34,446 bases of DNA, from contig NZ_CADEPJ010000043.1 of NCBI RefSeq assembly GCF_902829245.1, positions 1 through 34,446 of the forward strand. The letters are read 5' to 3'. Origin of the DNA: Comamonas jiangduensis (GTDB lineage: Bacteria; Pseudomonadota; Gammaproteobacteria; Burkholderiales; Burkholderiaceae_C). Below are positions 2,173 through 29,604 of the stretch, in pieces (the first letter of the stretch is position 1; each line of letters begins with the position of its first letter). A program made the translations under genes and the position numbers. The notes beneath the pieces were generated by a model. That model saw only the letters and a program-made list of their open reading frames with translations, was not told the origin of the DNA and did no database searches.

Positions 2173-3728
2173 TTAAAACCATCATTGATAAATTGCTGGG
2201 CAAAGAGCCCGCCACCCGTTCGCGCAAGCCGCGTTTTGGCAAGCGTGAAGAGGTGCCGGCCAGTGTGCACGGCATTGATCCGCAGTTGGTGGATCCGCGC
2301 GCCGTGGACGTGGTGCGCACGCTCAAGGATGCAGGCTTTGAGGCCTACATTGTGGGCGGCGCGGTGCGCGACTTGCTGCTGGGGCTGCGCCCCAAAGACT
2401 TCGATGTGGCCACCAATGCTACGCCTGAGCAAGTCAAAACCTGTTTCGCCGTGCCTTCATCATTGGCAAGCGTTTTCGCATCGTGCACGTGGTGTACGGG
2501 CGTGGGCGTGAGCATGAGGTGATTGAAGTCTCCACCTTCCGCGCCTTCCTGGACAACAGCCTGGCCGAACAAGTCAGCGGCAATGAGCGCACCAGCAAGC
2601 TGGCGCTGGCGCATATGAAGCATGCCGTGGATGCCAGCGGCCGCGTGCTGCGTGACAACGTCTGGGGCCCGCAAGACCAGGACGCGACGCGCCGTGACTT
2701 CACCGTGAATGCCATGTACTACGACCCGGAAAGCGAAGTCGTGGTGGATTTCCACAAAGGAATCCAAGATGCGCAAAAGCGGGTGTTGCGCATGATTGGC
2801 GACGCGGCTACGCGCTACCGCGAAGACCCGGTGCGCATCATTCGTGCCGTGCGTTTTGTGGCCAAGCTCAGCCCGCTGGGTTTCAAACTGGAGTCCAAGA
2901 CGGCCAAACCCTTGGTGGAGTCGGAGCACTTGCTCAAAGAAGTGCCCCAAAGCCGGTTGTTTGACGAAATGCTCGCTGCTGCAAACCGGCCATGCGCTGG
3001 CATCGATTGAGCAGCTCAAAAAGCTGGGCCTGGCCAAGGGCATTTATCCGTTGCTGGACGTGGTGGTCGAGCGTGCAGACCACCCCTTCGTGCAAGCGGT
3101 GCTGGCCGATACCGATCGCCGCGTGGGCGAAGGCAAGCCCGTAGCGCCCAGCTTTATGCTGGCTTGCGTGCTGTGGCAAGACGTGAAGACGGGCTGGGAT
3201 CAGCGCCTGAAAAAGGGTTTTCACGCCTTTCCTGCGCTGAGCGAAGCGATTGACGAAGTGTTTGACCAGCGCATTGGTGATGTCTCGGGCCGCGGCAAGC
3301 TGGCTGCGGACATGCGTGAAATCTGGGTCATGCAGCCGCGCTTTGACAAGCGCACCGGCTCATCCCCGTTTGGCATGGTGCTGCAAGCGCGCTTTCGTGC
3401 AGGCTTTGACTTTTTGCGCCTGCGCGCTGATGTGGGCGAGGTGGACGAGGCACTGGCGCAGTGGTGGCAAGACTTCCAGGCGTCGGACGATGCACACCGC
3501 GAAGACTTGGTGGCCCAGGCCCGTGAAGAGCAGCGCCAAAAGCAAAAGGCGGCCCAACCGCGCAAGACGGTGCGCCAAGCCGAGTCGGAAGATGCCCCAC
3601 AGGATGCCATCGGCCATGAAGGCGCTCAGGCGCTGGGTGATGCACCGGCGAAGAAAAAGCGCCGCCGCCGTCGCAAGCCCGCAGGCAGTGGCGCGGCCGC
3701 CGCAGCCGGCGCGGCCGAAGCCGAGTGA
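2169..3728 (+). CDS. pcnB: Poly(A) polymerase I (two frame breaks)
   Basis: PcnB adds poly(A) tails to RNA 3' ends and promotes RNA decay; it is a class II nucleotidyltransferase related to CCA-adding enzymes. The head domain has the motif GGAVRDLLLGLRPKDFDVAT, with the catalytic DxD, and later RRDFTVNAMYYDP. The C-terminal tail is very basic, with KKKRRRRRKPAGSG, as in other PcnB proteins. Two frame breaks interrupt it. Near 2,445 one base is missing after PEQVK; near 2,975 two bases seem to be missing where LFDEMLKLLQTGHA is expected. All three pieces match one protein of about 515 residues. The start overlaps the HAD stop and the end overlaps folK by one base, so it lies in a tight operon. 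The breaks are more likely sequence errors than decay. Confidence 0.88.
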
Positions 3729-4225
3729 TGACTGGCGTGCGTGTGTATGTAGGCCTGGGTGCCAATTTGGGTGACCGTGGGGAGGCGCTGCTGCAAGCAC
3801 TCCGTGCGATGGCGGCCCTGCCACAGACCCAGTTGCTGGCCGTGTCATCGCTCTACAGCAGCGCGCCCGTGGATGCGACAGGGCCAGACTATTTGAACGC
3901 CGTGGCTGCGCTGCAGACGCAGCAAAGCCCCGAGGCTTTTTTGCAGGCGCTGCAAACTGTGGAGCTGGCCGCAGGCCGTGAGCGCCCTTACCGCAATGCG
4001 CCGCGTACACTGGATTTGGATATTTTGCTGTGGGGCAATGCGCAACTGGACACCCCGGCGCTGACCGTGCCGCACCTGCGCATGTATGAGCGCGCTTTTG
4101 TACTGCTGCCTTTGGCGCAACTGGATGCCAGTTTGGTGCGTGCAGACCAATTGGCGGCGGTGGCAGACCAGCGGATTGCCGTGGCACAAGATGCGGATTG
4201 GGCGGCCAGCGCGTTGCAGGCTTAG
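3728..4225 (+). CDS. folK: 2-amino-4-hydroxy-6-hydroxymethyldihydropteridine pyrophosphokinase
   Basis: HPPK transfers pyrophosphate from ATP to hydroxymethyl-dihydropterin in folate synthesis. The 165-residue protein has the N-terminal GLGANLGDR, the catalytic and magnesium-binding segment RPYRNAPRTLDLDILLWG, and VPHLRMYERAFVLLPL, all family signatures. Length fits the family (about 160). The start is ATG at 3728, overlapping the last base of the pcnB stop; a GTG at 3725 is also possible. It is the last gene of the hda-pcnB run. A symmetric terminator follows 38 bases after the stop. Confidence 0.95.
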   Translation: MTGVRVYVGLGANLGDRGEALLQALRAMAALPQTQLLAVSSLYSSAPVDATGPDYLNAVAALQTQQSPEAFLQALQTVELAAGRERPYRNAPRTLDLDILLWGNAQLDTPALTVPHLRMYERAFVLLPLAQLDASLVRADQLAAVADQRIAVAQDADWAASALQA

Positions 4226-4263
4226 TTCACCCAGCCTGGGCTGTGGGGCACCGTTGCCCTAAG

Positions 4264-4299
4264 AAAAAAGCGCACTTCGGATCGAGCGTGCGCTTTTTT
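4264..4299. terminator. Bidirectional intrinsic terminator after folK
   Basis: Stem AAAAAAGCGCAC (4264-4275) pairs perfectly with GTGCGCTTTTTT (4288-4299) around a 12-base loop. The A-tract on one side and T-tract on the other let it work in both directions. It sits between convergent folK and ridA. Confidence 0.85.
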
Positions 4300-4317
4300 A
4301 TAGCTAGAAATATTAAA

Positions 4318-4406
4318 AAAAGAGCTGCTGGCGCTTTTGGATATTGGATTTCAATATGTTTTGATATTGAAATCAAAGACTGTATTGCGCAGGCAGCTCT
4401 TATTTT
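4318..4406. repeat. Intergenic palindromic repeat, copy 1 (long form)
   Basis: The left arm AAGAGCTGCTGGCGC (from 4320) and right arm GCGCAGGCAGCTCTT (4387-4401) pair as the outer stem. Nested inside is a perfect 11-bp hairpin: 4347-4357 pairs with 4364-4374 around the loop GTTTTG. The right arm is followed by TATTTTTAT and ends just before the ridA stop codon. The other members of this family in the window lie at 10008, 13040, 14680, 17281, 18341, 23558, 27002 and 29960. Confidence 0.8.
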
Positions 4407-4408
4407 TA

Positions 4409-4866
4409 TCAGGCAATCTCTGCGATCAGTTCAATTTCCACGCACGCACCCATGGGGATTTGGGCCACGCCAAATGCGCTGCGGGCGTGGGTGCCTTTGT
4501 CGCCAAAAACCTCGGCGATCAGCTCGAGCAGCCATTGGTCACCAGGTGTTGCTCGGTGAAGCTCGGGGTGGAGTTGACTAAGCTCATCACCTTGATGATG
4601 CGTTGCACACGGTTCAGAGCCCCGCCGCAGGCCACTTGCAAGGTGCCCAGCAAATCAATCGCCACGGCGCGCGCGGCTTGCTTGCCTTCTTCGGTGGAAA
4701 TGTTGGCGCCCAGTTGGCCAGCCCAGACTTGCCCCTCTTTTTTGGCAATGTGGCCGCTCAAGAACACCAAATTGCCCGTTTGTACAAACGGCACATAGGC
4801 GGCAGCAGGTACAGCGGCGGCGGGCAGTTGGATGTTCAGGGCTTGCAGTTGGTCATAAACGCTCAT
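4409..4866 (-). CDS. RidA family protein (one frame break)
   Basis: RidA/YjgF-family proteins hydrolyse reactive enamine and imine intermediates released by PLP enzymes. The protein starts at ATG 4866 with [15 protein letters not shown] and carries [19 protein letters not shown] and the cysteine-containing [13 protein letters not shown]. The frame breaks near 4,525, where one G is missing in the TCGGAG context. It then resumes as [20 protein letters not shown] and [16 protein letters not shown], which holds the arginine that normally binds the substrate carboxylate. Combined length is about 152 residues, fitting the longer RidA subgroup. It is divergent from comEC by 74 bases and convergent with folK. 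The exact substrate is unknown. Confidence 0.85.
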
Positions 4867-4940
4867 GGGGTTTTCCTTTCGTCTTGTTGGAGCGGGGCGT
4901 AACTGGGTGACTGGCTTTGCATACCCAGCCTACACGCCGC

Positions 4941-7348
4941 ATGCTTGCCAGTATGCCAATACATTGCAGCGCTTTGCCCCAGCGACCAGTCACCGGCGTA
5001 TATGCCATGGTGGGTCTGGTGGCTGGCAGTGCCTTGCAACTGCAGCAAAGTGCACTGTTTTCGTCCGGGGCGTATGTTGCCATCGCGGGTGCAGCGGTGG
5101 CGCTGGCCATGGTGCTGGGGTGGTGGATCAAGCCTGCACGCAGTCATCCGTGGTGTGTGCTGGCCTTGGCCATGGTGTTGGCTTGGGGTTGTACGGGATG
5201 GCGGGCAGCCGCTTTTCAGCAAACGGCCATGCCCGCTGCCTGGGAGGGACGTGATGTTCGCGTCGAGGGTGTGATTGTCGACATGCCGCAGACCACAGCG
5301 CGCGGGGTGCGCATGCGTTTTGAGATTGAGCAAGCATGGGCACAAGGCATGCCCATTCGGTTGCCCGAGGGAGTGATGCTGACCTGGTATGGAGAGCCGC
5401 CGGCCGAGGCTTGCAGGCTGGCCAGCGCTGGGCATGGACGGTGCGTCTCGAAGCACCGCATGGAACGGAATCCGCAGAGCAGGGATTGGGAGTTGTGGCT
5501 GTGGAGCCAAGGGGTGCAAGCCACCGGTTATGTGCGCCAGCACCGCAGTGGTGGCGGCAGCGGCAGCGACAAGGGCGAGGTGGCGCGCCGCAATGGCTGG
5601 CGCAAACAGCACGGGCACCGGTGGCGCAGTTGCGCGGCCGCTTGCTGCAAGCGATGCAACCGCCAGAGGGGGCATCAGCGCGTGAGCAGGCATCGTGGGC
5701 GTGGTACAGGCCTTGGTGACAGGGGCGCAGTCCCGCATCACGCGTGCAGATTGGCAATTGTTCAGAGATACGGGCGTTGCCCACTTGGTCAGCATCAGTG
5801 GTCTGCACATCACAATGTTTGCGTGGCTGGCTGTGGCGCTGGTCAATGCAGGATGGCGGCGCAGTGCGCGCGCTGTTGCTTGTGGCTGCCAGCACCGCTG
5901 GCAGCGCATGGGCTGGCTGGTGCTTGGCCACGGTGTACGCCGTGTTCAGCGGTTGGGGCATTCCGGCCCAACGCACGATTGGCATGCTGCTGGTGGTGGT
6001 GCTTTTGCGCACCCAAGGGCGCACATGGCCTTGGCCTGTGGTGTGGTTGACGGTGCTGACCGTGGTGGTGCTGCTGGATCCGTGGAGCTTGTTGCAAGCC
6101 GGGTTCTGGTTGAGTTTTGTAGCAGTGGGGGTGTTGTTTGCCGCGCAGCCCCCGGACCGCAATCGGCACGAGAAAAAATACCGCCATGCCGGGTTGCGGC
6201 TGCTGAGAGAGCAGGCAGTGCTAGGGCTGGCCCTGGCACCGCTGACGCTGCTGCTGTTTGGCCAAATCTCGGTGGTGGGCCTGCTGGTGAACTTGTGGGC
6301 CATTCCCTGGGTGACGTTGGTGGTCACGCCGCTGTCCATGCTGGGGGCGCTATGGCCGCCTTTGTGGCAACTGGCGGTATCCGGGGTGACGGCCATGATC
6401 TGGCTGCTGGAGGTCATGGCAGCATGGCCGGTGGCTGTGCTGTACTTTGCGCAGCCTGCGTGGTGGGCAGCGGTGGCAGGCGTGCTGGGGTGCTTGTGGC
6501 TGGCGATGCCTTGGGGTTGGCGCTGGCGTTTGCTGGGGCTGCCGCTGGTTATGCCGATGCTCTGGTGGCAGCCTGCAACCCCAGCGTGGGGGCAGTTTGA
6601 TCTGTTGGCGCTGGATGTGGGAGGCAGGGCGGTGCTGGTGCGCACACAGCACCACAGTCTGTTGTTTGATGCAGGGCCCCGCTGGTCGGAGCATGTCGAT
6701 GCAGGAGAGCGTACGGTGGTGCCGGTGTTGCGGGCGCTGGGCGTGGATCTTTCGGCGCACATGATCAGCCATGCCGACAGCGACCATGCAGGAGGTGCGC
6801 CTTCGGTGCAGCAGGCCTTCCCCCAGTCGCAAGGCTTGGGTGCCGGTGGCGTACCTTGCCAGGCAGGCCAGTCATGGCGCTGGGATGGCGTGCATTTCCA
6901 GGTGCTCCACCCCTTGCCCATAGGCCCTGGGGGGCGTGCGGTTCATACCGCCAGTAATGCCAGCAGCTGCGTGCTGCAGGTAGAAAGCCTGGCAGGACAG
7001 CGGGCATTGTTGAGCGGCGATATTGAAGCGCGGCAGGAGCGGGCGCTTATTCGTGCTGGTGCAGATGTGCGTGCCCAGGTGCTGCTGGTGCCGCACCACG
7101 GTAGCACCACATCTTCCAGCGCCGCATGGATTGAGGCGGTACAACCTGTGATAGCGATTGCCCAAGCCGGCTATCGCAACCGGTTTGGGCACCCGGCACC
7201 TGCCGTGGTGGAGCGTTACCAGCGCGCCGGTGTTGACTGGGTCGCAACGCCGACATGTGGGGCCGCGTGGTGGCGCTCCACGCAGCCCGATCAGGTGCAG
7301 TGTGAACGCGCGCATCGGCGCAGGTATTGGTCGACCCTGTCCCCTTGA
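4941..7348 (+). CDS. comEC: ComEC/Rec2 family DNA-uptake channel (multiple frame breaks)
   Basis: ComEC forms the inner-membrane channel for single-stranded DNA in natural transformation. In order the sequence shows an N-terminal membrane region (AMVGLVAGSALQLQQ), an OB-like region (EGRDVRVEGVIVDMPQTTA), the Competence domain beginning near VTGAQSRITRADWQLFRDTG and HLVSISGLHITMF, several membrane helices, and a C-terminal metallo-beta-lactamase-like domain with HADSDHAGGA and LVPHHGSTTSSS. The frame changes at about 5,400, 5,470, 5,600, 5,690, 5,850 and 5,920; downstream of that it is open to the stop at 7346-7348. Total length (about 800 codons) is normal, so no large segment is lost. In the last domain the expected LDVGQG loop reads LDVGGRA. 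The start is uncertain: ATG at 4941 or 4953. It is either a pseudogene or heavily miscalled sequence; the breaks cluster in the first half. Confidence 0.82.
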
Positions 7349-7478
7349 GAGCTAGCCCGGTTGCTACACTCCATGCCACTTTGGACGCTGCAGTGGCGGG
7401 CTGTGGCGGACGGGCAAGTTCATGCAGGCCTGATTCTTGCTGCAGAAGCAGCAATCCATATGTGGGAGGCGCGCGAAG

Positions 7479-8993
7479 ATGCAAAAGTTTGATGAAATGT
7501 ACGCCATGCTGCCTTTCGATGGCAGCGATGTGCGGCCCCATTACAAGGCCTATGCCCAGTGGCTGGCACGCCAAGCGCCAGCCACGATGCAGGCACGCCA
7601 GGCCGAGGCAGAAATGATTTTTCGCCGGGTGGGCATTACGTTTGCTGTCTATGGTGACAAGGACGAAAGCGGCGCAGGAACGGAGCGGCTGATTCCGTTT
7701 GACTTGATTCCCCGCATCATTCCTGCTGGTGAGTGGCAGCGCATGCAGCAAGGGCTGGTGCAGCGTGTGACCGCGCTCAACCGCTTTATCGGTGACATCT
7801 ACAACGGACAGGAAATTCTGCGGGCAGGCATTGTTCCGCGTGAACTGATTGACGGGAACAGCCAGTTCCGCCCTGAGATGTGCGGGCTGCAGGTGCCCGG
7901 CCATATTTACGCGCATATTGCTGGCATTGACATCGTGCGGGCCCCCAATGCGCAGGGCGAGGGTGAGTATTACGTGCTGGAAGACAATCTGCGCGTGCCT
8001 TCTGGTGTGTCTTACATGCTGGAAAACCGCAAGATGATGATGCGCTTGTTTCCTGACTTGTTCAGCGCGCACGCGGTCGAGCCGGTGGCGCATTACCCCG
8101 ATATGTTGCTCGATACCTTGCGTGCCAGCGCACCGCCCAGTGCTGCAGCGGCCACCGCGACCGTCGTGGTGCTGACCCCCGGCATGTACAACAGCGCTTA
8201 CTTTGAACACGCCTTTTTGGCCCAGCAAATGGGGGTGGAGCTGGTTGAAGGCCAGGACTTGGTGGTACGCAATCAGGTGGTGTACATGCGCACCACCCGT
8301 GGCTTGCAGCGGGTCGATGTGATTTACCGCCGGGTGGACGATGATTTCTTGGACCCGGATGTTTTTCGCCCTAGCTCAACGCTGGGGTGTGCGGGCTTGA
8401 TGGAGGCTTACCGCGCAGGCAATGTGACGATTTGCAATGCGGTGGGAACGGGGATTGCGGACGATAAGTCGGTCTACCCCTACGTGCCGGACATGATCCG
8501 CTTTTACCTGGGTGAAACGCCCATTCTCAACAACGTGCCCACCTGGCTGTGCCGCAAGCCCGACGACCTGCGCTATGTGCTGGAGCATTTGCAGGAGTTG
8601 GTGGTCAAGGAAGTGCATGGCGCTGGTGGCTATGGCATGTTGATTGGCCCTGCAGCGACGACGGCAGAACTTGAAGACTTCCGCAACGCATTGCGGGCGA
8701 ACCCTGCGGGCTATATCGCCCAGCCGACGCTGAGCCTGTCGAGTTGCCCGACGATGGTGCAAGCGGGCATTGCACCGCGTCACATTGACTTGCGCCCTTT
8801 TGTGCTGAGTAGCAGCGAAGGCGTGCACATGGTGGCGGGTGGTCTGACCCGTGTGGCTTTGAAAGAGGGATCGCTGGTGGTCAATTCTTCTCAAGGTGGC
8901 GGAACCAAAGACACCTGGGTGCTGGGTGAGCCTGGCCAAGATGCGTTGCTGGCGGCGCAAGCACAGCCGTATGGCATGGCTCGGGGGGTATGA
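7479..8993 (+). CDS. Circularly permuted ATP-grasp protein (DUF404/DUF407 type)
   Basis: A 504-residue member of the circularly permuted ATP-grasp type 2 family. These are predicted peptide or amide ligases, usually encoded beside an alpha-E protein. The family block MQKFDEMYAMLPFDGSDVRP opens the protein. RRVGITFAVYGD and RLIPFDLIPRII follow, then YVLEDNLRVPSGVSYMLENR, GTGIADDKSVYPYVP and the ATP-binding lysine and glycine-rich segment VVKEVHGAGGYGMLIGP. The C-terminal part has QPTLSLSSCPT and HIDLRPFVLSS. The start at 7479 is supported by GGAGG about ten bases upstream and by homology beginning there. The alpha-E gene starts one base after its stop, so they form an operon. The reaction and substrate are not known. 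Confidence 0.9.
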   Translation: MQKFDEMYAMLPFDGSDVRPHYKAYAQWLARQAPATMQARQAEAEMIFRRVGITFAVYGDKDESGAGTERLIPFDLIPRIIPAGEWQRMQQGLVQRVTALNRFIGDIYNGQEILRAGIVPRELIDGNSQFRPEMCGLQVPGHIYAHIAGIDIVRAPNAQGEGEYYVLEDNLRVPSGVSYMLENRKMMMRLFPDLFSAHAVEPVAHYPDMLLDTLRASAPPSAAAATATVVVLTPGMYNSAYFEHAFLAQQMGVELVEGQDLVVRNQVVYMRTTRGLQRVDVIYRRVDDDFLDPDVFRPSSTLGCAGLMEAYRAGNVTICNAVGTGIADDKSVYPYVPDMIRFYLGETPILNNVPTWLCRKPDDLRYVLEHLQELVVKEVHGAGGYGMLIGPAATTAELEDFRNALRANPAGYIAQPTLSLSSCPTMVQAGIAPRHIDLRPFVLSSSEGVHMVAGGLTRVALKEGSLVVNSSQGGGTKDTWVLGEPGQDALLAAQAQPYGMARGV

Positions 8994-8994
8994 A

Positions 8995-9957
8995 ATGCTA
9001 AGCCGCACTGCTGACCATTTGTTCTGGATGTCGCGCTATACCGAGCGGGCAGAAAACACTGCCCGCATGTTGAGTGTGAGCTATGACACCTCCATGCTGC
9101 CCATGCGCGCTGAAGATGCCACGCGGGTGTGGCAAGGGGTGCTGTCGATCAGTGAGTTGATTCCGGCGTTCCAGTCCCGCTACGGCGAAGTCACGCGCGA
9201 CAACGTGCTGTTTTTCATGGTGGCCGATGAGCGCAACCCCGCATCCATCGTCGCGTGCTTGCGTGCAGCGCGTGAAAACGCACGCGCGGTGCGCGGTGCA
9301 TTGACGACGGAAATCTGGGAAACGCAAAACCAAACATGGCTGGCGCTGCGCGCACAGCTGTCCGGAGGCGCCTTGGGCAAAGACCCCGGTCAGCTGTTTG
9401 AATGGGTCAAGTACCGCTCGCACCTTGCACGGGGGGTGGCGTTGGGCACCATGCTGCAAGACGAAGCCTTTAACTTCGTGCGCATGGGTACTTTTTTAGA
9501 GCGCGCAGACAACACGGCGCGACTGCTGGATGTGCGTTTTCATGCCGTTGAGCGTGACTATCACGGGGTGGATTTCAGCCGCAAAGCAGGGCAGCAACTG
9601 GATTTTTACCACTGGAGCGCGTTGCTGCGCAGCGTGTCAGCGTTCGAGGTGTACCGCAAGGTTTACCGTGACGTGATCACGCCTGCGCGTGTGGCAGACC
9701 TGCTGGTACTGCGCGCCGACATGCCACGCTCGCTGCACGCCTGCATGCGCGAGGTGGTGGACAACCTCAAGGCCGTGGCCCACGAGGGCTCGCAGGAAAG
9801 CCAGCGCAAGGCGGGGCGCCTGCTGGCCGATCTGCAGTACGGCCGCATTGATGAAATTCTGGACACCGGCTTGCACGCCTACCTGACGCAGTTCCTGGAT
9901 CGCGTGAACCTGCTGGGTGAATCCATCACCCGGGATTTTCTGGTGCCCGAGCTGTGA
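8995..9957 (+). CDS. Alpha-E domain protein (DUF403)
   Basis: A 320-residue, almost wholly helical protein of the alpha-E family. It starts MLSRTADHLFWMSRYTERAE and carries the family's repeated arginine- and glutamate-rich helices, such as RMGTFLERADNTARLLDVR in the middle and ESITRDFLVPEL at the end. Alpha-E proteins nearly always accompany circularly permuted ATP-grasp proteins, and the role is thought to lie in a peptide-synthesis or tagging pathway. That is an inference from neighbourhood, not biochemistry. The start codon lies one base after the preceding stop. A perfect terminator follows at once, so the usual further partners (transglutaminase-like protein, proteasome-like hydrolase) are not part of this transcript. 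Confidence 0.9.
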   Translation: MLSRTADHLFWMSRYTERAENTARMLSVSYDTSMLPMRAEDATRVWQGVLSISELIPAFQSRYGEVTRDNVLFFMVADERNPASIVACLRAARENARAVRGALTTEIWETQNQTWLALRAQLSGGALGKDPGQLFEWVKYRSHLARGVALGTMLQDEAFNFVRMGTFLERADNTARLLDVRFHAVERDYHGVDFSRKAGQQLDFYHWSALLRSVSAFEVYRKVYRDVITPARVADLLVLRADMPRSLHACMREVVDNLKAVAHEGSQESQRKAGRLLADLQYGRIDEILDTGLHAYLTQFLDRVNLLGESITRDFLVPEL

Positions 9958-11456: not shown

Positions 11457-13013
11457 ATGCTCGACGCCAATCTCAAGACCCAACTCAAAGCTTACCTCGA
11501 ACGCCTGCAAAAGCCGCTCGAACTGGTGGCCACTTTGGACGACAGCAAGGCGGCTGGCGAAGTCAAGTCCCTGCTGGCCGACATTGCGGCGCTCAGCGAC
11601 AAGATCACCGTGGTCGAGAATAACGACCTGAACGTGCGCAAGCCCTCTTTTGCCATCAACAACCCCGGCGTTGAAACCGGTGTGCGTTTTGCCGGTGTGC
11701 CACTGGGGCACGAATTCACCTCCCTGGTGCTGGCGCTGCTGCACGTTGGCGGCCATCCCTCCAAGGAATCGGCCGACTTGCTGGAGCAGGTCAAGGCGAT
11801 TGATGCACCACTGCATTTCGAAACCTACTACTCGCTGTCCTGCCACAACTGCCCCGATGTGGTGCAGGCGCTGAACCTGATGTCGGCCCTGAACCCCCAC
11901 ATCACCCACACGGCCATCGACGGCGGCCTGTTCCAGGACGAAGTCAAGGAGCGCGAAGTCATGGGCGTGCCCACCGTGTTCGTGAACGGCGAGCGCTTTG
12001 GCCAGGGCCGCATGGAGCTGGCGGAAATTGTCGCCAAGGTGGACACCGGCGCCGCAGCCCGCGAAGCCGCCAAGATTTCGGCCAAGGACGCGTTTGACGT
12101 GCTGGTGGTTGGCGGTGGCCCCGCCGGTGCCGCTGCGGCCATCTACGCCGCCCGCAAGGGCATCCGCACCGGGATTGCTGCCGAGCGCCTGGGCGGCCAG
12201 GTGCTGGACACCGTGGACATCGAGAACTTCATCTCGGTCAGCAAGACCGATGGCCCCAAGCTGGCCGCGGCCATGGCGGCCCACATCCGTGACTATGAAG
12301 TCGATGTGATGAACCAGCAGACCGGCGCCAAGCTGGTGCCCGCTACCACCGAAGGTGGTCTCATCGAAGTGCACACCGCTTCGGGCGCGGTGCTCAAGTC
12401 CAAGACCGTGATCCTGTCGACCGGCGCGCGCTGGCGCAACATGAACGTGCCCGGCGAGGAGCAGTACCGCACCAAGGGCGTGACCTTCTGCCCGCACTGC
12501 GACGGCCCCCTGTTCAAGGGCAAGGACGTGGCGGTGATTGGCGGTGGCAACTCCGGCGTGGAAGCGGCCATCGACCTGGCCGGCCTGGTCAAGAGCGTGA
12601 CGGTGCTGGAATTTGCCAGCGAGCTGAAGGCCGACGCCGTGCTGCAAAAGAAGCTGCGCAGCCTGCCCAACGTGACCGTGATCCTGAACGCCCAGACCAC
12701 CGAAGTGAACGGCGACGGCAAGAAGGTCACCGGTATCACCTACAAGGACCGCACCACCGACCAGGTTCACCAACTGGCGCTGGAAGGCATCTTCGTACAG
12801 ATCGGCCTGCTGCCTAACACCGACTGGCTCAAGGGCACAGTCAACCTGACGCGCTTTGGCGAGATCGAAATCGATGCCAAGGGCCACACCAATGTGCCCG
12901 GCGTGTTCGCAGCCGGTGACTGCACGAATGTGCCGTACAAGCAGATCATCATTGCCGCCGGCGCCGGTGCCACGGCCGCGCTGTCGGCGTTTGACCACCT
13001 GATTCGCCACTGA
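11457..13013 (+). CDS. ahpF: Alkyl hydroperoxide reductase subunit F
   Basis: AhpF is the FAD-dependent NADH:disulfide reductase that recycles AhpC. The 518-residue protein shows the N-terminal double thioredoxin fold with a CxxC in [12 protein letters not shown], the FAD-binding loop [19 protein letters not shown], the redox-active pair in [13 protein letters not shown], the NADH-binding loop [17 protein letters not shown], and [19 protein letters not shown] near the end. The ATG at 11457 is preceded by TTAGGA at the right distance; an upstream TTG at 11448 is less likely. The gene is intact, with strongly G+C-biased third positions typical of a highly expressed gene. Confidence 0.97.
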
Positions 13014-13039
13014 TCGGTATTATCAGTATTTAAGAAAAA

Positions 13040-13080
13040 TCGGCATCTGGCGCTTATCTAACAAGCGCAGTGAGCTATTA
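13040..13080. repeat. Intergenic palindromic repeat, copy 3
   Basis: The core CTGGCGCTT (13047-13055), then ATCTAAC, then AAGCGCAG (13063-13070), followed by TGAGCTATT. It lies 27 bases after the ahpF stop and directly before the terminator. Confidence 0.75.
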
Positions 13081-13110
13081 AAAAAGGACTGCCCAGGCAG
13101 TCCTTTTTTT
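13080..13110. terminator. Bidirectional terminator between ahpF and the Bug remnant
   Basis: AAAAAAGGACTGCC pairs with GGCAGTCCTTTTTT around a very short loop, with A- and T-tracts on the two sides. It serves the convergent ahpF and receptor genes. Confidence 0.85.
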
Positions 13111-13143
13111 GTGAAGCAGCCCAGCGTAGGGCTGTGTTCCGCA

Positions 13144-13680
13144 TCAGTCCATGGTCAGCTTTTGCTTGTCCACCACGTCCTTGTAGGCGGTGTATTCGGC
13201 CTTGATTTCGGCAGCAAACTTCTCGGGGGTGTCGGCCACGATCAGTGAACCGGTTTCCTCGATGCGCTTGCGCACGGCGGGGTCTTGCAGCACTTTGTGT
13301 ACGGCTTTGTTCACCTTGTCCACGACGTCCTTGGGCATGCCCTTGGGGCCAATCACGCCGTAGTAAGCCATGCGGTTCACGCCAGGGGCGCCCACTTCAG
13401 CCAGCGTGGGCACATCAGGCAGCACAGCCAAACGTTGGGGTGCTGCCACGACCAGCGGGGTCAGGCGCTTGCTTTGGATAAAGGGCAAGGTGGAAGGGAA
13501 GTTGTCAAACAGCAGCGGGATTTGGCCCGCTACAGCGTCGTTCAGTGCAGGGCCCGAGCCACGGTAGGGGACGTGCTGCATTTCGGTGCCGGTGGCCAGC
13601 ATGAACATTTCCATCATCAAGTGACCGATGGAGCCAGTGCCGGGCGAGCCAAACGAATGCTTGCCGGGGTTCTTCTTCGT
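13144..13680 (-). pseudogene. Bug-family (TctC-like) solute receptor, C-terminal remnant
   Basis: Bug proteins are periplasmic receptors of tripartite tricarboxylate and related uptake systems. About 177 residues remain, from NPGKHSFGSPGTGSIGHLMM through HVPYRGSGPALNDAVAGQIP, LPDVPTLAEVGAPG and IGPKGMPKDVVDKVNKAV, ending KDVVDKQKLTMD. A full protein has about 325 residues, so the signal peptide and first domain are missing. At about 13,680 the sequence switches abruptly to the end of a CoA-transferase in another frame. This is a deletion junction or a misassembly, not a natural start. Lying beside gcdH and a glutarate-type CoA-transferase, it may once have bound glutarate; this is inference. 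Confidence 0.8.
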
Positions 13681-14664
13681 CCTCCAGCAGCGCAATCCAT
13701 TCCTGCGTGCCGCGCGTTTGCATCAGCGGCACCATCAGCGCCAGCAATGCCGTGCGGTTTTGCACGCGGGCCGTGTTGGTGGCAAAGCGCGCATCCTGCG
13801 CCCATTCGGGTTGATGCACCGCTGCGCAAAAGCGCGCGAACTGGCCGTCGTTGCCAATGGCCAGCAGCACATTGCCATCGCTGGTTTTGAAGTCCTGGTA
13901 GGGCGCCAGGCTGGGGTGGATATTGCCCGCACGCCCCGGTGCTTGGCCGGTGGCCAGATACCCTGCCGCCTGGTTGGCCAGCACGGCCATGCCCACATCC
14001 AGCAGCGCCATGTCGATGTACTGGCCCTGGCCAGTGCCGGTGCGGGCGTTGTCGCGGGCATTGATGGCCGCCAAAATCGCGTTGCTGGCGTACAGGCCGG
14101 TGAACACATCGATCACCGCCACGCCCACTTTGAGCGGGCCGCCGCCGGGTTGCTCGTCGGCATGGCCGGTGATGCTCATCAGGCCGCACATGGCCTGCAC
14201 CATCAAGTCGTAGCCTGCGCGCTCGGCGTAGGGGCCATCCTGGCCAAAGCCGGTGATGGAGCAGTAGATCAGCTTGGGGTTCAGGGCTTTGAGGCTGTCG
14301 TAGTCCAGCCCGTATTGCGCCAGGCCGCCGACCTTGAAGTTCTCAACCACCACATCCGCTTCTTGCGCCATCTGGCGCAGCAGCGCCTGGCCTTCGGGGT
14401 GGGCCATGTCGACGGTGATGCTGCGCTTGTTGCGGTTGCAGGCGGTGAAGTAGCTGGCCTCGCGCGTGTCGTTGCCCGCATCATTTTTCAGGAACGGAGG
14501 GCCCCAGTGGCGGGTGTCGTCGCCAGCCACGGGGCGTTCGACCTTGATCACATCGGCACCCAGATCGGCCAGCATTTGGGAGGCCCAGGGGCCGGCCAGT
14601 ACGCGGACAGATCCAGCACCTTGATGCCTGCCAGTGCACCTTTTGCTGTGGAATTGGACATCAT
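13681..14664 (-). pseudogene. Family III (CaiB/BaiF) CoA-transferase, truncated; probable glutarate CoA-transferase
   Basis: Family III transferases move CoA between carboxylic acids through an aspartyl-CoA intermediate. The start at 14664/14661 reads MSNSTAKGALAGIKVLDLS; then one C is missing near 14,613 and the frame resumes in MLADLGADVIKVERP. Family blocks follow: YFTACNRNKRSITVDM, VVENFKVGGLAQYGLDY, LIYCSITGFGQDGPYAERAG, and GYDLMVQAMCGLM. It stops matching after EWIALLE near 13,685, about 75-80 residues short, where it meets the Bug remnant. The order gcdR, gcdH, CoA-transferase, receptor matches glutarate catabolism clusters in which this gene is called gcdG. The gene as given could not make a whole enzyme. 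Repeat copy 4 lies just upstream of the start. Confidence 0.8.
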
Positions 14665-14679
14665 GAACCTTCTAGAGAA

Positions 14680-14720
14680 AAGAGCCGCAAATGCTTATTC
14701 TGTAAGCGCAGGCAGCTCTT
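14680..14720. repeat. Intergenic palindromic repeat, copy 4
   Basis: The left arm AAGAGCCGCAAATGCTTA and right arm TAAGCGCAGGCAGCTCTT (14703-14720) surround TTCTG. It lies between gcdH and the downstream CoA-transferase, 15 bases before the latter's start codon, an unusual 5' position for this family. Confidence 0.75.
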
Positions 14721-14776
14721 AGAAGCAGAGCGAACTCCTGGGAACGCTCTGCATAGTCAACCTAGGTGAATGGCGC

Positions 14777-15967
14777 TCAGTTGGCGAATGCCGCAATGCC
14801 AGTCTGGGCGCGGCCCAGAATCAGCGCGTGCACATCGTGCGTGCCTTCGTAGGTGTTGACTACTTCCAGGTTCACCAGGTGGCGGGCCACGCCGAACTCG
14901 TCGGAGATGCCGTTGCCGCCCATCATGTCGCGCGCCAGGCGGGCCACGTCCAGGGCCTTGCCGCAGTTGTTGCGCTTGATCAGCGAGGTGATCTCGACCA
15001 CGTTCTGGTGCTCGTCCTTCATGCGGCCTACGCGGAGAGCCGCTTGCAGGCCCAGGGTGATTTCGGTCTGCATGTCGGCCAGCTTCTTCTGGATCAGCTG
15101 GTTGGCGGCCAGAGGGCGGCCAAACTGTTTGCGGTCCAGTGTGTACTGGCGCGCGGTGTGCCAGCAGAACTCGGCCGCACCCATGGCGCCCCAGGCGATG
15201 CCAAAGCGTGCGCTGTTCAGGCAGGTGAAGGGGCCCTTGAGGCCACGCACTTCAGGGAAAGCGTTTTCTTCTGGGCAGAACACGTCGTCCATGACGATTT
15301 CACCGGTAATCGATGCGCGCAGGCCCACCTTGCCGTGGATGGCGGGGGCGCTCAGGCCTTTCATGCCCTTGTCCAGAATGAAGCCGCGGATCTGGCCCAC
15401 GTTGCCGCCTTCAGAGACTTCCTTGGCCCACACCACAAACACGTCGGCCACGGGGCTGTTGGTGATCCACATCTTGGAGCCCTTGAGCTTGTAGCCGCCA
15501 TCGACCTTGTAGGCACGGGTGGCCATGGAGCCGGGGTCGGAGCCGTGGTCGGGTTCGGTCAGGCCAAAGCAGCCAATGAATTCGCCCGATGCCAGCTTGG
15601 GCAGGTATTTTTGCTTTTGCGCTTCGGTACCAAACTCATTGATCGGCACCATCACCAGCGACGACTGCACGGAAGCCATGGAGCGGTAGCCCGAGTCCAC
15701 GCGCTCGATTTCGCGTGCCACCAAGCCGTAGCTCACGTAGTTCAGGCCAGCGCCGCCGTATTCGGTGGGGATGGTGGGGCCCAGCAGGCCCAGCTCGCCC
15801 ATCTCGCGGAAGATGGACACGTCGGTCTTCTCGTGGCGGAACATGTCCTGCACGCGGGGCATCAGCTTGCCCTGGCAGTACTCATAGGCCGCGTCGCGGA
15901 TCATGCGCTCGTCAGCGGTCAGTTGCTCGTCCAGGTGAAAGGGGTCTTGCCATTGGAAGTTGGACAT
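14777..15967 (-). CDS. gcdH: Glutaryl-CoA dehydrogenase
   Basis: GcdH is a flavoprotein that oxidises and decarboxylates glutaryl-CoA to crotonyl-CoA in lysine, tryptophan and glutarate catabolism. The 396-residue protein has [38 protein letters not shown] and, near the end, [20 protein letters not shown], with the catalytic glutamate at about residue 374. That last block distinguishes glutaryl-CoA dehydrogenase from other acyl-CoA dehydrogenases. The start is ATG at 15967 ([15 protein letters not shown]) with AAGGAGCACC just upstream; the frame is open further upstream but without homology. It is divergent from gcdR with a perfect palindrome at 16072-16088 in between. Confidence 0.95.
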
Positions 15968-16188: not shown

Positions 16189-17130
16189 ATGCGCCGCTCT
16201 ATCCCTTCCACCCAAGCCCTGGCCTGCTTTGAGGCCGCCGCCCGCCACGAAAGCTATACCCGCGCCGCGCAAGAGCTGGCGCTGACGCAAGGTGCGGTCT
16301 CACGCCAGGTGATTGCGCTGGAAGCGTTTGTGGGGGTGGAGCTGTTTCGCCGCACGCGCCATGGCGTGGCCCTCACGCCGGCTGGCGAGGCTTATGCGCG
16401 CAAGGTGCGCAGCTGGTTGCTGGGCATGGAGCGCGACACGCTCGACCTCATGGCCCACCAGGGCGCGGGGGGCACCATCAAACTGGCGGCCGTGCCCACG
16501 TTTGCCACGCGCTGGCTGATGCCACGCCTGCCGCAACTGGCCAAAACCTATCCCGACATCACCGTGCACATTGATGTGCAAACTCGCCCGTTTTTGTTTG
16601 CCGACACGGGCTTTGATGCAGCCTTGTATGCGGGCACGCCCGATCAGGTGCACAACTGGCCGGGGATTGAAGCCCTGCACTTGATGGACGAAGACGTGGT
16701 GCCCGTGTGCAGCCCCCAGTTGCTGGCCCGGGCCGTGCAGCGCGATCTGGGGCGTGCGTGGCAGCCGCTGGCCCGCAGGCGCTGGCAGATTGCCGCTGCT
16801 GCAGCAAAGCACGCGCCCGCAAGGTTGGGTGCAGTGGTTTCAGTCGGTGGGGTGGATGCGCAGCGCGCCATGGACGGGCCGCGTTATGAGCTGTTTTCCA
16901 TGCTGGCGGTGGCAGCCACGCAGGGGATGGGGGTGGCGCTGATTCCGCCCATGCTGGTAGAGGCCGAACTGGCGCGCGGTGAGCTGGTGGTGGCCTGCGC
17001 CCAGCCTTTACGGGGCGAGCGCGGCTACTACCTCATCACCCCCGCGCAGACCATGCCCTCAACGGTGGTGACGGCGTTTTCGACATGGCTGCACCGCATG
17101 GCCCAGCACAGCAACGGTGTCGCAGGCTAG
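16189..17130 (+). CDS. gcdR: LysR-family regulator, probable glutarate regulator GcdR (internal frame slip)
   Basis: A LysR-type transcription factor whose place opposite gcdH fits GcdR, the activator of glutaryl-CoA dehydrogenase genes. The N-terminal helix-turn-helix lies in [20 protein letters not shown] through [19 protein letters not shown]. The effector domain reads [20 protein letters not shown] and ends [20 protein letters not shown]. The frame is open throughout 313 residues, but between about 16,735 and 16,850 the protein looks out of frame. The expected [20 protein letters not shown] is present one frame over (from about 16,790). Normal sequence resumes at [15 protein letters not shown]. 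Compensating indels therefore corrupt some 25-40 residues. The start ATG at 16189 begins [20 protein letters not shown], as in the family. Confidence 0.83.
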
Positions 17131-17152
17131 CGGTGCTTAAAAACTGGCAACC

Positions 17153-17189
17153 ATAGAAAGTGTCTATCGTGACAATAGCTTAAGCCCCT
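17153..17189. promoter_or_regulatory. OxyR-like four-part operator in a convergent gap
   Basis: ATAG (17153-17156), seven bases, CTAT (17164-17167), seven bases, ATAG (17175-17178), seven bases, then CCCT (17186-17189). The OxyR consensus is ATAG-N7-CTAT-N7-ATAG-N7-CTAT, so three of four elements are exact at exact spacing. It lies 22 bases after the gcdR stop, with no recognised gene start nearby. Confidence 0.45.
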
Positions 17190-17280
17190 TATCCAGTGGG
17201 CTAGGCACACTTGTCCACAAGCTTGTTGGGGCTGGTGGGGAGAACTTTTCGTGCCGAGCGGGCGAAAACGGTTGGCGCAA

Positions 17281-17321
17281 AATAGCTGCCCGCGCTGATC
17301 TATCAAGCGCTGGCAGCTATT
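17281..17321. repeat. Intergenic palindromic repeat, copy 5 (best short form)
   Basis: AATAGCTGCC pairs perfectly with GGCAGCTATT as a 10-bp outer stem, with CGCGCT and AAGCGCT inside around ATCTATC. It lies between convergent gcdR and ppsR, 25 bases past the ppsR stop. Confidence 0.85.
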
Positions 17322-17346
17322 TGGAGCATGCATGAGGAGAGGCGGC

Positions 17347-25699: not shown

Positions 25700-26956
25700 A
25701 TGAATTTTTTTGCCATGACCGACAACGCTGCTTCTGACCTACCTACCGCTTCTTCTTCCAGCCCCAACCAAGCCTCTTTGCCTTTGCAGGGCATACGCGT
25801 GGTGGAGTTCAGCCACATGGTCATGGGGCCTGCGTGCGGCATGGTGCTGGCGGATCTGGGCGCAGAAGTCATCAAGGTGGAGCCAGTGACGGGCGACCTG
25901 ACACGCGGGTTGCTGGGTGCGGGCGCGGGATTTTTTCCCATGTTCAACCGCAACAAGAAAAGCGTTGCCATCGTCCTGCGCCGCGCTGAAGGGCTGCAAG
26001 CGGCGATTCGCTTGGCCTCCACCGCCGATGTGGTGGTGCAAAACTTCAAGCCGGGCGTGATGAAGAAGTACGGGCTGGACTATGCCCATCTGTCCCAGCT
26101 CAACCCCGGCCTGATCTATGTGAACCACACCGGCTTTCTGCCTGGCCCTTACGAGCATCGCACCGCACTGGATGAAGTGGTGCAAATGATGGGTGGGCTG
26201 GCGTATATGACTGGCCGCCCCGGCGATCCGCTGCGTGCCGGCTCCAGCGTGAACGACATCATGGGCGGCATGTTTGGGGCGATTGGCGCGCTGGCCGCGC
26301 TGATGCAGCGCAACCAGACCGGCAAGGGCCAAGAGATTGACTCGGCCCTGTTTGAAAACAATGTGTTTCTGGTCGGGCAGCACATGATGCAGTACGCCGT
26401 CACCGGCCAGCCTGCGGCACCCATGCCGGAGCGCATTTCCTCATGGGGGCTGTATGACGTGTTCAGCGTCAAAGATGGTGAGCAGATATTCCTAGCCGCC
26501 GTGAGCGATGCCCAGTGGCGCACCTTTTGCACCGCCATGGGGTTTGAAGACATGGCCAACGATCCGGCTTTGCAGACCAACAACGACCGTGTGCGTGCCC
26601 GCGCCAGCATGCTGCCCGAGCTGCGCAAGCGCTTGGCGCACTACAGCGCTGCACACTTGGCGCAGGTCTTTGAAGCACACCAGTTGCCCTTTGCGCCGAT
26701 CTCGCGCCCCGAGCAGTTGCTGGACGATCCACACTTGCTGGCCACAGGGGGCTTGGCGGATGTGGTGCTCAGCGATGGGGAAAGAGCGGGCCACACCGCG
26801 AAAACCACCTTGCTGCCGATCCGCATGGATGGCGAGCGTTTGGGGGTGCGCAGCCAGCCCCCTAAACAGGGGGAGCATACGCGCGAGCTGCTGGCGTCCT
26901 TGGGGTATACGCAAGCAGAAATAGACGCCATGCTGCAATCCCAATCCATTGCTTAA
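25700..26956 (+). CDS. Family III (CaiB/BaiF) CoA-transferase
   Basis: An intact CoA-transferase of 418 residues, working through an aspartyl-CoA thioester. Family blocks are GIRVVEFSHMVMGPACGMVL, LGAEVIKVEPVTGD, PMFNRNKKSVAIVL, VVQNFKPGVMKKYGLDY and LIYVNHTGFLPGPYEHR, and later GKGQEIDSALFENNVFLVGQ. The substrate cannot be told from sequence. The start ATG at 25700 lies 14 bases after AAGGAG; a second ATG at 25715 (MTDNAASD) is further from it. It is clearly distinct in sequence from the truncated CoA-transferase at 13681-14664. Placement opposite an HxlR-type regulator suggests inducible control. Confidence 0.93.
   Translation: MNFFAMTDNAASDLPTASSSSPNQASLPLQGIRVVEFSHMVMGPACGMVLADLGAEVIKVEPVTGDLTRGLLGAGAGFFPMFNRNKKSVAIVLRRAEGLQAAIRLASTADVVVQNFKPGVMKKYGLDYAHLSQLNPGLIYVNHTGFLPGPYEHRTALDEVVQMMGGLAYMTGRPGDPLRAGSSVNDIMGGMFGAIGALAALMQRNQTGKGQEIDSALFENNVFLVGQHMMQYAVTGQPAAPMPERISSWGLYDVFSVKDGEQIFLAAVSDAQWRTFCTAMGFEDMANDPALQTNNDRVRARASMLPELRKRLAHYSAAHLAQVFEAHQLPFAPISRPEQLLDDPHLLATGGLADVVLSDGERAGHTAKTTLLPIRMDGERLGVRSQPPKQGEHTRELLASLGYTQAEIDAMLQSQSIA

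Positions 26957-27155: not shown

Positions 27156-29604
<2,449 letters not shown>

Follow-up and report, generated by a model that had tools for sequence, protein, structure and literature searches.

The locus raises the question of whether an enzyme gene and a receptor gene of a Comamonas genome have been fused by a deletion in the organism or only in its assembled sequence. The stretch of DNA analysed here (the window) is the whole of contig C43, 34446 bases long, from a draft genome whose 322 contigs sum to 2.76 Mb and which is listed at 75.45% completeness and 3.58% contamination, and the relatives used for comparison also belong to Comamonas (handles G029, G010, G066 and others). At one point of its minus strand, a gene encoding a family III CoA-transferase passes abruptly into a gene encoding a Bug/TctC tripartite tricarboxylate receptor. 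The evidence set out below makes it very probable that this junction is a sequencing or assembly artefact in an indel-rich and misjoined draft.

The first-pass annotation, made from the sequence alone, described a switch from the CoA-transferase to the Bug receptor, out of frame and on the minus strand, and both its site and its partners are confirmed at the junction listed in Table 1. Frame -3 carries the CoA-transferase part and frame -1 the Bug part, the DNA alignment to relatives is continuous in the CoA-transferase down to 13679 and picks up at 13677 in Bug, and base 13678 falls to neither side in most comparisons. A 23-mer spanning the junction has a single occurrence in the window with up to three mismatches (none expected by chance). 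Against G029, the window lacks residues 329-418 of the CoA-transferase (90 residues, where 75-80 had been proposed), 223 intergenic bases and residues 1-144 of Bug, which amounts to 928 nt. The proposed total of about 0.7 kb is too small as well: when the comparison with the cluster of relatives is run, the positions that are adjacent in the window lie 811-999 nt apart in the nine relatives measured (G029, 928; G010, 938; G009 and G033, 975 each; G004, 999; G002, 811; G019, 817; G021, 832; G031, 905). The Bug receptor of G002, G019, G021 and G031 is mostly more distant, and the five relatives with the most similar receptor give 928-999 nt. BLAST extends both sides of the junction over the same nine bases in G009 and G033 and the same three bases in G028 and G017, a weak signal. 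In window 12800-14800, the listed imperfect direct repeats and one exact 12-nt pair all lie off the junction; this search is not a real test of a deletion, because a deletion between repeats leaves one copy. An enzyme-receptor fusion protein was rejected as a candidate, since the frame changes between the two halves, the receptor has lost residues 1-144 and the enzyme is 90 residues short.

Table 1. Coordinates of the features in the window (C43) and of the junctions in the other contigs compared.
Feature	Contig	Position	Strand	Observation
Bug/TctC tripartite tricarboxylate receptor remnant (PF03401)	C43	13144..13677	-	C-terminal 177 residues (145-321)
Junction	C43	13677..13679	-	CoA-transferase ends at 13679, Bug receptor begins at 13677
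Family III CoA-transferase remnant (PF02515)	C43	13679..14661	-	about residues 1-328 of the 418 of the G029 homologue
One-base deletion	C43	14604..14605	-	against 4/4 relatives; splits the CoA-transferase N-terminus from the rest
gcdH-like acyl-CoA dehydrogenase	C43	14777..15969	-	unbroken; 97-98% identity to four relatives
gcdR-like LysR regulator	C43	16189..17130	+	three private 1-base deletions at 16770-16849
Deletions in gcdR	C43	16772, 16788, 16848		
Insertion in hda	C43	1240		
Deletions in pcnB	C43	2437, 2974		
Deletion in sodium/solute symporter gene	C43	21850		
rpoD	C43	27159..29604	-	private 1-base deletions at 27804 and 27973 against 3/3 relatives
Deletion in sulfurtransferase-like gene	C43	33789		below model cut-off
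Junction	C199	2582		about 378 nt lost within Peripla_BP_6 gene
Junction	C199	6303		AMP-binding gene joined to HDOD/EAL gene
Junction	C37	3221-3222		different CoA-transferase abruptly joined to different Bug receptor
Junction	C20	17911-17915		about 1.8 kb fewer than 3/3 relatives; cuts FecCD gene
Junction	C10	near 7705-7769		about 540 nt fewer; start of rpoC gone

Both remnants belong to the families assigned to them. The CoA-transferase remnant matches PF02515 (CoA_transf_3) with 359 bits over profile positions 12-301 of 366, and the intact G029 homologue does so with 447.3 bits over positions 1-366. The receptor remnant matches PF03401 (TctC) with 121.7 bits over positions 101-269 of 274, its N-terminal part being absent. 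The best match of the G029 homologue is NF052585 (succinate--glutarate CoA-transferase), with 520.5 bits against a cut-off of 750, a score that comes from this homologue and not from the window remnant; since it lies below the model cut-off, glutarate specificity rests on gene context. The CoA-transferase shows a further lesion which is absent from the first-pass annotation: the deletion near 14605 shifts its first approximately 19 residues into another frame. The retained CoA-transferase DNA shows 82-89% identity to relatives with an intact cluster. Mismatches against G029 by codon position are 22/17/75 in the CoA-transferase remnant, 16/3/55 in the Bug remnant and 4/3/63 in the intact gcdH, so constraint is weaker on the CoA-transferase remnant than on gcdH. 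Substitution in both remnants is dominated by third positions and gives no indication of long decay, a pattern that a very recent deletion would leave too.

The gene order in the window, a gcdR-like LysR gene on the plus strand followed by gcdH, the CoA-transferase and Bug on the minus strand, is that of a glutarate cluster. A gcdR-gcdH-gcoT glutarate cluster is described in Pseudomonas putida KT2440 (PMC6667623), and the window resembles that description in grouping a LysR regulator, gcdH and a glutarate CoA-transferase gene: gcdH and, after it, the CoA-transferase share a strand, from which the regulator gene diverges. Unlike the cluster described in P. putida KT2440, a Bug/TctC gene follows in the Comamonas relatives, and in the window the CoA-transferase and the receptor are truncated at one junction. 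The earlier view that gcdH and gcdR are left in place holds for gcdH, which is unbroken, but gcdR is not simply intact: its three deletions (net -3) alter approximately 27 residues, after which the frame is restored.

The order gcdH, CoA-transferase and Bug is intact in seven relatives (G029, G010, G066, G065, G009, G033 and G004), and three others depart from it. In G071, Bug adjoins gcdH with no orthologous CoA-transferase between them (7090-9612 of the fetched locus), in G035 no Bug match is found in its locus, and in G002 about 1 kb, perhaps an insertion element, splits the Bug gene of the glutarate cluster (6019-7053 of the fetched locus). G071 also shows, beyond Bug, a family III CoA-transferase with 36% identity, which has 87% identity to window 25784-26950. 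A scan of the genome_contigs collection gave 338 loci encoding a relative of the CoA-transferase; among the best 80, which include some genomes also present among the G handles, the enzyme is full length in all 80. With up to 3 kb of flank fetched per locus, a Bug gene of more than 50% identity is present in 25 of these 80 (24 full, one interrupted) and none was seen in 48; in the remaining seven the flank runs off the contig.

If the junction is an artefact, indispensable single-copy genes should also be broken in the same contig, and rpoD is such a gene. In a search of the whole draft RpoD is found in this contig only, in three pieces in different frames, and two further matches, with 29-30% identity, look like other sigma factors. 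A cell with no intact housekeeping sigma factor is not viable, and the rpoD indels are for this reason errors. They belong to a set of eleven private indels of 1-2 bases in conserved coding sequence of the window, ten deletions and one insertion, called against up to four relatives and each seen against all those aligned there (two to four). These eleven are a selection, many others in intergenic, terminal or low-complexity stretches having been set aside.

Other differences from relatives are present in the window. Around 17108-17345 there is a synteny break: the preceding sequence matches G010 C15 and G029 C69, and the sequence after it matches mostly G010 C14 and G029 C63. This break may be real, because in G071 parts of both sides share one contig. 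At 8926-8995, approximately 165 nt extra are present in G010 and approximately 395 nt in G029; G029, G009 and G033 have partial copies of the start of an alpha-E domain gene, and the match of the upstream gene ends 26 residues early (one query). This difference is either natural variation or another collapse. Between 24301 and 24987 the window encodes a protein with two FKBP_C stretches, and the internal repeat of this gene is also seen in comparison with three relatives.

An artefact of this kind should also produce large junctions elsewhere in the draft, indispensable genes included, and similar ones are found. Four other contigs of the draft were compared with G010, G029 and G066: C199 and C37, chosen as holders of paralogues of the two genes, and C10 and C20, which are longer than the other four in a set of six chosen by number (the length of C10 was already known). 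C143, C96, C50, C150, C250 and C300 were left out of this comparison, as were the initial 3000 bases fetched from C1 and C100. Large and abrupt gene-cutting junctions are present in all four contigs (Table 1). The junction points of C37 are separated by about 2.65 kb in G010 and G066. In C10, the only match to rpoC in the draft lacks residues 1-178 (1-174 by another search), and in place of the rpoC start positions 7648-7769 contain a 61-nt arm followed, with no spacer, by its 98% reverse complement. This fold-back derives from sequence after rpoB and looks like a fold-back chimera. The same contig carries frameshifts in nusG and in rpoB (at 3633). As rpoC is indispensable, a large junction can be artefactual in this draft. 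In C199, positions 3093-6304 are 97% identical to G029 and the rest of the contig 71-89%, the block stopping abruptly at 6303; it is possibly a cross-species chimera or a transfer.

The frequency of such damage was compared with that in relatives by a leave-one-out control, based on reference proteins whose full length had been validated in two genomes other than the target. Split or truncated conserved genes amount to 16 of 43 in five contigs of the draft and to 2 of 127 in ten relatives (Fisher's test, p = 2.5e-9, genes with a common lesion not being independent), and the two broken control genes are the halves of the single Bug gene interrupted in G002. An earlier form without leave-one-out gave 9/29 against 0/103 in four relatives, and an earlier leave-one-out form with fewer loci gave 9/30 against 2/99. 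In these counts one lesion may score twice, as do both sides of 13678 and of C199:6303, and what is scored as a gene at C10:3331-7562 is a reading frame antisense to rpoB. C37 scored 0/3 because its junction genes failed the validation rule, and the loss in rpoC is uncounted because it falls below the 20% length rule. Among the control regions, some belong to drafts which are likewise metagenome bins (G009, G035) and others to isolates. The control shows that the draft is abnormal and does not address the cause.

Taken with the damage in these contigs, we infer that the same process made the junction in the window and that intact genes exist in the cell. Most likely, the true chromosome would carry an ordinary cluster of gcdR and, divergently, gcdH, the CoA-transferase and the Bug receptor; approximately 0.9 kb would have been skipped where two pieces were wrongly joined, and the base near 14605 in the CoA-transferase would have been dropped by the same poor consensus. 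Of the two outcomes considered in the first-pass annotation, the assembly error gains support from the breakage of the only rpoD and the only rpoC and from the junctions in 4/4 other contigs. Indels left uncorrected are reported to shift reading frames and to leave gene predictions incomplete in metagenome and long-read drafts (PMC8021871, PMC12007338), and for metagenome drafts it is documented that frameshifts arise from long-read indels (PMC8021871); beyond errors of this type, the present draft also has kilobase-scale joins and a fold-back. An amplification chimera was considered because of the fold-back in C10, which resembles the inverted chimeras with a deletion that multiple displacement amplification produces (PMC1855051). 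In the chimeras reported there, direct joins of less than 10 kb are rare (11/475; PMC1855051), and the junction in the window, a direct join of this kind, falls in this rare class.

The other outcome, a real and recent deletion of about 0.9 kb in the strain that fused the genes and abolished the formation of glutaryl-CoA from glutarate by this enzyme together with the adjoining receptor, is unlikely, and its proposed effect, the removal of glutarate uptake and activation, finds no independent support, although parts of the cluster do vary in some relatives. A true deletion keeps some probability because the missing stretch is poorly matched in the draft and because parts of the cluster go missing naturally. 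Sought across the whole draft, outside its own flanks, the missing stretch finds a best match of 78% (80 nt) and a longest strong match of 77% over 354 nt, on C199, and these matches are diverged Bug paralogues only; this is what a real deletion predicts, yet the draft is only 75% complete. The absent or interrupted cluster parts in G071, G035 and G002 and the weaker constraint on the CoA-transferase remnant than on the intact gcdH also fit a real deletion, and a recent one inside an error-rich contig would look the same. Under this explanation, the base missing at 14605 would be either an error of its own or another true lesion. Against it stand the broken single-copy rpoD in the same contig, the headless single-copy rpoC elsewhere in the genome and the commonness of broken genes in the contigs sampled. 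No independent genome shows the same junction either: a 48-mer across it has no matches in the genome_contigs collection, which may omit the window's own or very near records, and the enzyme is full length in the 80 best loci of that collection. Mass pseudogenisation of a genuine kind, such as a newly host-restricted symbiont undergoes, would make the fusion one pseudogene among many and would account both for the total of 2.76 Mb and for the damage (frameshifts, truncations or gene-cutting junctions) present in the window and in 4/4 other contigs compared, but it is rejected as extremely improbable because rpoD, rpoC, rpoB and nusG are affected, which is not expected to be tolerable in a living cell, and it agrees poorly with a projected size of about 3.7 Mb (by arithmetic from 2.76 Mb and 75.45% completeness), inside the span of the same-genus genomes listed, and with coding substitutions dominated by third positions in both remnants.

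It is likewise improbable that a single recent deletion has deprived a Comamonas lineage of glutarate activation and of the adjoining receptor, with gcdH and an altered gcdR kept. If true, this lineage could use only internally made glutaryl-CoA and, taken with G071 (no orthologous CoA-transferase) and G035 (no receptor), the glutarate module would have been eroded repeatedly within the genus; a real deletion would amount to a modest example of catabolic gene loss. Under the far more probable artefact, and with over a third of the testable conserved genes broken in the five contigs tested (16 of 43), apparent pseudogenes, fusions and pathway losses in this draft are not believable without reads, and no statement on the glutarate metabolism of the organism should rest on this contig.
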